35,664 nucleotides of DNA from a virus. Location: IMG/VR virus record IMGVR_UViG_3300042896_000063, positions 1-35,664 of that record, one strand, 5' to 3'. The position numbers were made by a program, and so were the translations under genes. Positions 28,560-32,994 of this stretch are shown here, piece by piece (positions within the stretch are counted from its first letter, which is position 1; every line of letters starts with the position of its first letter). Under the pieces are notes generated by a model, which worked only from the letters and a program-made list of their open reading frames with translations, was not told the DNA's origin and ran no database searches.

Positions 28560-29312
28560 ATGAAAATTCTAGTATTGCCAGATGTACAGGCAAAGCATGG
28601 TAATGATTTCAGTTTCTTAACTTCTATAGGTAAATACATTTTAGCAAAGAAACCGGACGTAATTGTAAACATCGGAGACTTTTCTGACATGGAGAGTTTA
28701 AGCTCGTATGACAGAGGTTTAAAGTCTTTTGAAGGTCGTAGCTACATGAAAGATATTTGGAGTGCTAGAGAAGCTATGGATGCACTCCTAGAGCCAATAT
28801 ATCAATACAATATCAGTCAGAAAAGCCATAAGCACAAACCTTATAAACCTAGAATGATTTTGACACTAGGCAACCATGAAAATCGTATTAATCGTGCAGT
28901 CAATGAAGATAGAAAGCTAGACGGATTAATCTCTACCGATGACCTTCCTTATCAAGACTGGGAGGTATATCCATTTCTTGAGGTAGTAGTAGTAGCAGGT
29001 ATTGCATTCTCACATTACTTTACTAGTGGTGCAATGGGTAGACCTGTAGGTACTGCGCAGGCTTTACTATCTAAGAAGCATATGTCATGTGTAGCAGGGC
29101 ATCAACAAGGTAGACAGATTGCCTATGCTAAACGTGCTGATGGTGCTGAGATGACTGCATTAATTATTGGTAGCTGTTACCAACATGATGAAGATTACAT
29201 GGGTATACAAGGTAATCAGCATTGGAGAGGACTCTATCTTCTGCACAACTGTCATGATGGTTCATTTGATGAATGTGCCGTACCACTTCAATATATTACA
29301 GATAATTATTAG
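28560..29312 (+). CDS. Calcineurin-like metallophosphoesterase
   Basis: A 250-aa phosphoesterase with two-metal motifs: D8 (LPDVQ; the usual DxH histidine is replaced by Q10), GDFSD (39-43), GNHE (104-107), H152 in FSHY, and GHQQG (180-184). Phage enzymes of this fold act on nucleic acid or nucleotide phosphoesters; substrate here unknown. It is placed after lysis and before the pqqA insert. The Q10 substitution may alter metal binding. Confidence 0.8.
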   Translation: MKILVLPDVQAKHGNDFSFLTSIGKYILAKKPDVIVNIGDFSDMESLSSYDRGLKSFEGRSYMKDIWSAREAMDALLEPIYQYNISQKSHKHKPYKPRMILTLGNHENRINRAVNEDRKLDGLISTDDLPYQDWEVYPFLEVVVVAGIAFSHYFTSGAMGRPVGTAQALLSKKHMSCVAGHQQGRQIAYAKRADGAEMTALIIGSCYQHDEDYMGIQGNQHWRGLYLLHNCHDGSFDECAVPLQYITDNY

Positions 29313-29361
29313 CAATATTTAGTCATTACAACTAAGTTTGTCTTTCATAATATGGTCTATA

Positions 29362-29391
29362 TTGAACACAAGCACTTTTGCTTTGTATAGA
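29362..29391 (+). promoter_or_regulatory. Candidate promoter for pqqA
   Basis: TTGAAC (29362-29367), 18-bp spacer, TATAGA (29386-29391), each four of six to consensus, 14 bp ahead of the start codon. The spacer contains a 5-bp inverted repeat (AAGCA/TGCTT, 29370-29383). An own promoter would let this gene be used separately from the lysis genes. Moderate match only. Confidence 0.4.
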
Positions 29392-29405
29392 TTAAAGGCT
29401 ATATT

Positions 29406-29477
29406 ATGTGGACATCACCATCAGCAACAGAAATGCGTTTTGGCTTTGAAGTAACTTTATATGTAATGAATCGTTGA
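29406..29477 (+). CDS. pqqA: PqqA, PQQ precursor peptide
   Basis: A 23-residue peptide that begins MWTSPSATEM and ends FEVTLYVMNR. It matches PqqA, the ribosomal substrate of pyrroloquinoline quinone synthesis, in length and layout: MW start, (M/L)R, and the FEVTxY core with E15 and Y19, the two residues that PqqE cross-links and which become PQQ. These positions are the same in the 23-residue enterobacterial PqqA. AAAGG lies 7 nt before ATG 29406. No pqqB-E exists in the genome, so host enzymes (PqqD chaperone, PqqE radical SAM) would be needed. It sits between the phosphoesterase and an HNH gene, like an acquired accessory gene. PqqA is usually missed by gene callers because of its size. 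Confidence 0.93.
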   Translation: MWTSPSATEMRFGFEVTLYVMNR

Positions 29478-29498
29478 TATTATGTTATAGTAATAACT

Positions 29499-29581
29499 CT
29501 ACCAGAATGACTTAGCGGTCATGTTCGGCTTCAGTAACCGACTGGTAGTTCTAAATTTCTTACTGACCTTAAACTGAAAGG
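29499..29581 (+). ncRNA. Candidate pseudoknotted RNA between pqqA and the HNH gene
   Basis: Outer helix CTACCAG (29499-29505)/CTGGTAG (29542-29548) encloses hairpin ATGAC-TTAGCG-GTCAT (29507-29522) and hairpin TCGG-loop-CCGA (29525-29541), a compact three-way junction. The loop of the second hairpin contains TCAGTAA (29531-29537), exactly complementary to TTACTGA (29560-29566), a 7-bp pseudoknot. The same loop (TTCAGT, 29530-29535) can instead pair with ACTGAA (29573-29578), which touches the HNH gene's Shine-Dalgarno AAAGG. Two exclusive partners suggest a switch. Pairings are seen; the role is inferred. It could also be a 3' element of pqqA mRNA. Confidence 0.55.
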
Positions 29582-29587
29582 TATCAA

Positions 29588-30034
29588 ATGAACAAAAAAT
29601 CAATAGATATAAATGCTTTAAAAGACTATTTTTATTATAAAGATGGCGGTTTATATAGTAAATTAAATAATAAACAATATGGCACTAAAAGAACTGATGG
29701 CTATGTTGTATTTCAACATAATAAAATAAAATATTATGTTCATAGAGTAATCTGGGCTTTGCATAATGGAACTATTCCAGATGAAAAACAAATAGACCAT
29801 ATTAATAGAAATAAATCTGATAATACAATTGAAAATCTTAGAGTAGTAAATGTAAGAGAAAATGGATTAAATAGAGAATTTAAAAAAAGTAATACTGGTA
29901 TTAAAGGTGTTAGTAAAGATAGAGATTATTATAAAGTAAGTTTTACTATCAATAATAAATCAATTCATGTTGGTAATTTTAAAAACTTAATTGATGCAAA
30001 AAATTGTGCTAATAACTTTTTGATGAATAAGTAA
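29588..30034 (+). CDS. HNH homing endonuclease with AP2 domain
   Basis: A 148-aa free-standing HNH nuclease. Residues about 40-100 carry the HNH_3 pattern (YYVHRVIWALHNG, KQIDHINRNKSDNTIENLRVV), followed by a C-terminal AP2-like DNA-binding fold (NTGIKGVSKDRDYYKVSFTINNKSIHVGNFKNLIDAKNCA). These are selfish genes spread by cutting cognate DNA and often sit next to intron or accessory sites. Very AT-rich with A-ending codons, unlike neighbours, which suggests recent acquisition. Its 3' end overlaps the last leftward gene by 26 bases. Confidence 0.9.
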   Translation: MNKKSIDINALKDYFYYKDGGLYSKLNNKQYGTKRTDGYVVFQHNKIKYYVHRVIWALHNGTIPDEKQIDHINRNKSDNTIENLRVVNVRENGLNREFKKSNTGIKGVSKDRDYYKVSFTINNKSIHVGNFKNLIDAKNCANNFLMNK

Positions 30035-31811: not shown

Positions 31812-32675
31812 TTACCTTTCAATTAATTTCATGCCATATTCATTTACAGCATTAACTTTTATAAAATCATCTCTTAATTGTGGCAAGTTCTTAAAGCCAC
31901 TATAATCTACATGATGATGCCATCTCTTAAATTTATATACTAATGCAGAATATTGAGGGTAAACATCTACAAGCATCTTAGATTTAGGCAATGTACCCTC
32001 TTTATCATAAAACTCTTCTGTATTGCCACCGCCTAGTGTTGAAGTTCTTAATTTATTCTGTAAAAATGCATAAAAAGAAACAGTACAGTAACCTTGTTCA
32101 AGCATATCTAAAGACAATATTGTATCTTCATTATAACGACCACGCCATCTTAAATTAATATCATTGCGAATAAGATTGCATGAGTAAATTCGTGTATTAA
32201 GTTTAAACGGCACATTAATACTTCTCTCAGGTGCAAAGAATCTATATTCAGGACCTGCCATTGCTACATTGCTATACCTATCACAAAAATCTTCCATTGC
32301 TTTAAATATACTAGCTGACTTAACAGGCACACGTTTATTATTATTAAGTCTAGCAAAGCCATCAATGTTATCGTCCATTACCCAATGCCACTTATAACCA
32401 TTGTCTATTGCATGTTGCCATGCAAAATTACGAGCAGGGCCAGGGCCTGTAGACTTGCTTAGACCATGCTCATCAAGTAACTCATATGAATCTTTATAGC
32501 TTAAATCTAGTACTAGTAAATTATCTTTATGCTTTTCATTAGTTCTATATAGTTCATATTCTTTTGGTTCTACTATTACGTAGTAGTCACACCCCATAGA
32601 TTTTAATGTATCTGCAGTAAGCATCTTTTCATACCGACCTTTAGAAGGTATATATATTGGATAACTATTTTTCAT
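31812..32675 (-). CDS. TET-associated-type glycosyltransferase (GT-A fold)
   Basis: A 287-aa GT-A enzyme. The opening YPIYIPSKGRYEKMLTADTL, VIVEPKEYELY, GPGPARNFAWQHAIDNGY and WVMDDNIDGFARLN (DD at 101-102, the nucleotide-sugar/metal site), then GRYNEDTILSLDMLEQGY, match phage TET-associated glycosyltransferases, which add sugars to modified DNA bases. No TET/JBP oxygenase or base-synthesis gene is encoded here, so its acceptor is unclear and a glycan or protein target is possible. ATG 32675 chosen; ATG 32681 adds two residues. Overlaps the upstream gene. Confidence 0.75.
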   Translation of the reverse strand: MKNSYPIYIPSKGRYEKMLTADTLKSMGCDYYVIVEPKEYELYRTNEKHKDNLLVLDLSYKDSYELLDEHGLSKSTGPGPARNFAWQHAIDNGYKWHWVMDDNIDGFARLNNNKRVPVKSASIFKAMEDFCDRYSNVAMAGPEYRFFAPERSINVPFKLNTRIYSCNLIRNDINLRWRGRYNEDTILSLDMLEQGYCTVSFYAFLQNKLRTSTLGGGNTEEFYDKEGTLPKSKMLVDVYPQYSALVYKFKRWHHHVDYSGFKNLPQLRDDFIKVNAVNEYGMKLIER

Positions 32676-32994
32676 CAACATATACCATACGTTTAGTATC
32701 AGTAATTGGCCAATAAAATGATTTAGTCGTATATGTAATCACTTTACCTAGCAACTTTGAAAATTCTTGCATATCATATTCTGATTCAAAGTTAATCTGA
32801 ATGGTATGTACTGACTCTTTGTTTTTAAAGCTAAATTCTGGCATATCTTGCCAATGATTTAAAGCAAATTCAACTGCAGAACTACCATCAGACTTACCAA
32901 ATAAATCAACTTGGTCATCAATTAAAATACTACCTTTAATATAATTCTCAGAATATCTTACTACTTTACCATCATCATCATATAGGGCGTACAT
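32665..32994 (-). CDS. Conserved phage protein upstream of the glycosyltransferase (109 aa)
   Basis: A 109-aa protein. The C-terminal half contains TIQINFESEYDMQEFSKLLGKVITYTTKSFYWP, a segment that recurs in phage proteins near DNA-modification or ParB-like genes. No enzyme motif. Its end overlaps the glycosyltransferase gene, so the pair is probably co-translated and may work together. Confidence 0.65.
   Translation of the reverse strand: MYALYDDDGKVVRYSENYIKGSILIDDQVDLFGKSDGSSAVEFALNHWQDMPEFSFKNKESVHTIQINFESEYDMQEFSKLLGKVITYTTKSFYWPITDTKRMVYVDEK

Follow-up and report, generated by a model that had tools for sequence, protein, structure and literature searches.

The window, meaning the whole stretch of 35,664 nucleotides analysed here (IMG/VR virus record IMGVR_UViG_3300042896_000063), is a genuine tailed phage genome with portal, terminase, capsid, and lysis genes. 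On its plus strand, from the ATG at 29406 to the end of the TGA at 29477, lies pqqA, encoding the 23-residue PQQ precursor peptide MWTSPSATEMRFGFEVTLYVMNR. A first-pass annotation of the DNA had placed a PqqA with E15 and Y19 at exactly this position, and the peptide scores above the curated cut-offs of both family profiles (Pfam PF08042, 35.5 bits, E 9.6e-9, cut-off 21.1; NCBIfam TIGR02107, 31.7 bits, cut-off 20). The glutamate and tyrosine that define PqqA, which have three residues between them and become PQQ, are present as E15 and Y19. A six-frame search of the whole record returned this single PqqA match (E 3.5e-9) and returned none in 14 control genomes, so the match is not due to chance; the identity of the gene as pqqA is near certain.

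Length, layout, the E-x3-Y pair, and scores above both cut-offs are shared between the phage peptide and the PqqA family. It is nearly identical to the PqqA of Methylophilaceae: comparison with the host peptide MWTTPAATEMRFGFEVTMYVMNK, a check proposed in the annotation, gave differences at four positions, and phage peptides resemble host peptides of this kind closely or match them exactly. What sets it apart from the usual family member is that it is phage-borne and stands without pqqB-E nearby. The annotation was right that the other pqq genes are absent, none of pqqB-E being seen among the window ORFs scanned; likewise, none of pqqB, C, D, and E was found in 141 viral loci (in the stretch searched around pqqA), as compared with pqqB in 52 of 119 cellular pqqA loci. 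Adjacency to pqqB-E is typical of PqqA without defining it, and hosts also have solitary pqqA genes.

A Shine-Dalgarno sequence, AAAGG, was read at 29394-29398 on the plus strand, 7 nt 5' of the ATG. The site called good in the annotation is thus present, but it is only adequate, being slightly weaker than the AGGA or AGGAG of most relatives; ribosome-binding sites of the AAGG/AGGA/AGGAG type precede all 138 phage pqqA copies examined. Just before it, a leader hairpin (AAGCA-CTTT-TGCTT; 29370..29383, plus strand) is predicted by folding, and a similar hairpin is kept in aligned relatives. Further upstream, alignment to relatives marks 29320..29365 (plus strand) as the presumed promoter region, a degenerate counterpart of their T[C/A]ATG[A/G]TTTT...TATAAT element; the window's own copy scores -4.2, below threshold. 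No unusual structure was predicted for the leader and pqqA region as a whole (z 1.2), the fold downstream (29478-29590) has no clear stability advantage over shuffles (z -1.1), and a generic promoter scan gave no excess near pqqA in the window.

The gene is located 3' of the lysis genes and of a metallophosphoesterase gene (phrog_221; 28560-29312), and 5' of an HNH endonuclease gene (29588-30034) and a minus-strand block of recombination genes. Elsewhere in the window, a minus-strand gene (31812-32681) matches phrog_842, annotated as a glucosyltransferase acting on glucosyl-hydroxymethylcytosine DNA, which makes DNA modification possible; neither tRNA genes nor Rfam matches above gathering were found in the window. 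Siblings were collected as relatives of the window's portal, and among those of about 35-36 kb pqqA was found in six of seven records, the window not counted. Two of them, G020 and G025, share the window's arrangement, with pqqA 3' of the metallophosphoesterase gene; wherever both genes could be placed in the remaining siblings, about 3 kb separate pqqA from the portal gene and the two are on opposite strands. The gene therefore has two positions among the window's close relatives. The sequence 3' of pqqA in G020 and G025 differs from that of the window, so that the HNH gene looks like an insertion beside pqqA. The exception, G019 (near-complete, 34.9 kb), has neither pqqA nor the metallophosphoesterase gene, and pqqA is therefore not essential for this lineage.

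A tblastn search of 50,697 phage records with the window peptide gave real matches only in methylophages (P19250A, Venkman, MEP301, MEP401, MEP402, and four Melnitz isolates) and in one Manatee Spring metagenome phage. Of methylophages, the GenBank phage collection has six types (P19250A, Venkman, MEP301, MEP401, MEP402, and Melnitz), and pqqA is thus present in all six. As the annotation had thought possible, it was overlooked in nearly all records of isolated methylophages, being almost always unannotated (as in the P19250A GenBank record) or hidden under a hypothetical ORF annotated on the opposite strand; such opposite-strand ORFs were seen in MW202481 and Melnitz. The remaining matches were set aside. 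Two came from records named Acinetobacter phage: in CAKLQF020000010.1 ("Acinetobacter phage MD-2021a") the match is flanked by pqqB, C, and D and a gene for a radical SAM protein, a full pqq operon, so that this record is a bacterial chromosome fragment; the second record is presumed to be bacterial as well. The match in Escherichia phage ERS-1 was partial (E about 10), and plasmid matches were pqqA genes of Burkholderiaceae megaplasmids, unrelated to the phage question.

The phages concerned belong to unrelated lineages: the Venkman/P19250A type, MEP301, the Zobellviridae MEP401/402, the T4-like Melnitz, and a 356 kb contig. The window's portal has relatives in 301 phage records, and among the best 40 of these a pqqA match was found only in Venkman and MW202481. 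When the largest ORFs of 119 viral loci with pqqA were compared with PHROG, they hit 190 families, among them several kinds of portal, terminase, helicase, and polymerase, which indicates that many phage lineages carry the gene. The 356 kb contig (IMGVR_UViG_3300023174_000036; L377/L423) is of jumbo-phage size, with pqqA near its end, and also has phage helicase and primase genes, a carbamoyltransferase-like gene, and a 2OG-Fe(II) oxygenase-like gene. Five viral contigs have a close relative of OM43 xoxF, and both large ones that were searched whole also have pqqA. These two contigs of 72 and 104 kb, L400 (IMGVR_UViG_3300025120_009955) and L401 (3300042891_000377), encode a xoxF-type methanol dehydrogenase 85-88% identical to that of OM43.

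Selection on the phage gene was assessed by scanning IMG/VR with two DNA patterns, both of which favour Methylophilaceae-like peptides. The pattern requiring EVT.Y gave at least 120 loci, and 119 of the 120 matches listed are true PqqA ORFs. The second pattern, blind to residues 14-23, also gave at least 120 loci with 119 complete peptides among the matches listed; F14, E15, T17, and Y19 are kept in all 119, and positions 4, 6, 7, 8, 10, 12, 16, 18, 20, 21, and 23 are variable. The sole short ORF among the matches listed (L385) is cut off by the end of its contig and was set aside as a truncated peptide for that reason alone. Loss of E15 and Y19 in sibling phages, named in the annotation as a finding that would speak against it, was not what was seen, the divergent siblings MWTSPAVSEMRYGFEVTAYIMTR and MWTKPNAVEMRWGFEVTCYIMNK both keeping the two residues. 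For 109 distinct phage genes, at codons not fixed by the pattern, pN/pS is 0.20 (0.14-0.28 in subsamples), and over FEVTMY, the most constrained segment, it is 0.03. Phage pqqA is under strong purifying selection.

On the host side, pqqA was found in 149 of 150 Methylophilaceae genomes, with a median of 4 copies (range 1-12). An earlier comparison of the family reported 3-12 copies and a single set of the other pqq genes (PMC4109929), and of the five copies in one PQQ-producing methylotroph, pqqA1 and pqqA3 are the most strongly expressed (PMC9851590). With a median of four copies and usually one pqqBCDE set, dosage of the precursor appears to be selected in the hosts. The solitary extra pqqA genes of Methylophilaceae (PMC4109929; PMC9851590) resemble the phage gene in being single-gene units away from pqqBCDE with the same peptide, and those of OM43 genomes have the same type of upstream element as phage copies; they are chromosomal, whereas the phage copies are viral.

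This element, T[C/A]ATG[A/G]TTTT[A/C] or a variant of it, was found at most 130 bases 5' of pqqA in 55 of 127 phage copies, an enrichment of about 350-fold over all other parts of these contigs, and in 27 of the 55 it is exactly 37 bases from a TATAAT-like box. With a weight matrix, 72 of 132 distinct upstream regions from phages (P19250A, MEP301, MEP402, and Melnitz among them) were seen to contain it at scores that none of 660 shuffles attained, the matrix being trained on phages so that the phage count is not independent, the shuffles being simple ones, and related sequences not being independent of each other. With the same matrix, 6 of 69 host regions and no shuffles were above threshold, and the simpler motif precedes 21 of 56 host pqqA copies (121-fold enriched). 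In OM43-type genomes both exact ATTCATGATTTTAC matches precede a solitary pqqA by about 110-130 bases; of the sites with a single mismatch, one does so too and the others do not precede pqqA. Judged by these comparisons, the upstream element is common to about half of the phage copies and to solitary host pqqA genes; about half of the phage copies, the window and Venkman included, have no good match to it. As a group, pqqA leaders have predicted folds that are more stable than those of composition shuffles (mean z -1.2, vs -0.33 for the region upstream), and between phages in which pqqA sits at different places the leaders resemble each other more than expected by chance (P19250A vs G020, score 62; 99.9th percentile of shuffles, 28). 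Units sharing a leader recur in different lineages and at different places in the genome, suggesting joint movement of promoter, leader, and gene.

We consider it probable that phage pqqA is a supplementary, stand-alone source of PQQ precursor that raises host PQQ for methanol dehydrogenase, a function we infer from conservation, host specificity, and host gene dosage. The first-pass reading of the locus as a phage pqqA, in the form now put forward, is borne out by the family scores, E15 and Y19 invariant among the matches listed, purifying selection, recurrence in unrelated methylophages, and the lack of pqqB-E beside the gene. In the infected methylotroph, pqqA would be transcribed as its own short unit, in many phages from a promoter of the type that drives the solitary pqqA genes of the host, and the peptide would be translated from its clear ribosome-binding site; host PqqE and PqqD would cross-link E15 to Y19, host PqqB and PqqC would finish PQQ, and the cofactor would pass to host methanol dehydrogenase, mostly XoxF. 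Methanol oxidation, and with it the supply of energy and carbon, would be kept up during infection, to the presumed benefit of the phage. Since PqqA is consumed one for one, an extra pqqA would raise cofactor supply with no need for the enzymes. As the hosts already have several copies, the gain may be small, and the conserved residues would also persist in a peptide that only needed to bind PqqD or PqqE.

That pqqA is a passenger of little benefit, often picked up because its hosts have many copies, is unlikely. It is a small, mobile-looking unit, hosts have 1-12 copies of it, and G019 does without it, all as expected of a passenger; purifying selection on the phage gene is not, nor is its presence in all isolated methylophage types checked, in six of seven near-complete siblings, and in the window, nor that close relatives of the window have kept it at two different sites. 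Very unlikely, too, is the decoy offered as an alternative in the annotation, by which the phage peptide would occupy PqqD or PqqE and lower host PQQ production. The peptide would indeed bind the same proteins, yet a decoy would profit from a lost or blocked E-Y cross-link, and the two residues that become PQQ are invariant in the 119 complete peptides among the matches listed, which disfavours it; FEVTMY being the most constrained segment and the closeness or identity of phage peptides to host peptides also argue against a decoy, and the joint occurrence of xoxF and pqqA on viral contigs fits a promoted methanol oxidation.

The promoter or leader might matter instead of the peptide, pqqA-type sites on the many copies of the phage genome titrating a host regulator or the leader RNA regulating the host. 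Enrichment of the element before phage pqqA, its sharing with host pqqA, and the recurring leader hairpins are in keeping with this, but the strong coding constraint on the peptide would be left unexplained, and the many phage copies with no good match to the element would have no part in it; we regard it as highly improbable. Host contamination or misassembly, named in the annotation as a possible refutation and suggested by a peptide nearly the same as host PqqA, is rejected as practically out of the question, since the gene sits between phage metallophosphoesterase and HNH genes with no pqqB-E nearby, recurs at the same place in G020 and G025, and is carried by all isolated methylophages checked, in complete genomes.

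A supplementary source of PQQ precursor remains our preferred reading of phage pqqA. A wider proposition is in our judgement evenly balanced between being right and wrong: that nearly all methylophages, from several unrelated families, have a stand-alone pqqA, in many cases under the pqqA-specific regulatory element that the host's own solitary copies have, and that PQQ precursor is a common bottleneck of infection. If so, phages would relieve this bottleneck in infected methylotrophs by means of a 72-base gene. In abundant bacteria of marine and fresh waters, methylotrophy begins with PQQ-dependent methanol dehydrogenase, and the presence of pqqA in every isolated methylophage checked and in a great many uncultured ones suggests that sustained methanol oxidation matters to these viruses and that infected cells are limited by a cofactor precursor and not by an enzyme. 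Cyanophage psbA is a host-derived auxiliary metabolic gene that likewise feeds one host step and is thought to sustain a central energy reaction during infection; the product of phage pqqA differs in being a consumed cofactor precursor and not an enzyme or reaction-centre protein.

The annotation knew of no described phage pqqA, but there is one earlier case: PqqA together with methanol dehydrogenase was reported for the Lake Baikal phage VP_266 (PMC7678222). VP_266 is similarly a methylophage with PqqA for which an aid to methanol oxidation was proposed; it is a population of T4-like phages whose reported gene set is larger and includes a methanol dehydrogenase gene, whereas here pqqA occurs alone in small phages, in several unrelated lineages, and often with a host-type upstream element. 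In a reservoir study pqqA, pqqE, and pqqD were listed among viral genes with no detail (PMC13188868), and the published papers on MEP301, MEP401/402, Venkman, and Melnitz name no pqq genes in the phages. The kind of gene is thus known from one described case; judged by the papers searched, its breadth, its occurrence on its own in small phages, and the upstream element held in common with hosts appear to be new. Skipped by gene callers, this 72-base gene is seemingly among the most regular host-derived genes of methylotroph phages; it can serve as a marker for such phages in metagenomes, and it warns that very short ORFs conceal viral metabolic genes.

PqqA types unlike those of Methylophilaceae were seen on IMG/VR contigs L011, L020, L025, L031, L032, L035, and L089, which may come from phages of other PQQ users, e.g. 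other methylotrophs or methanotrophs. Among methylophages, existing phage-host pairs are Venkman or Melnitz on H5P1 and MEP401/402 on FZCC0133.
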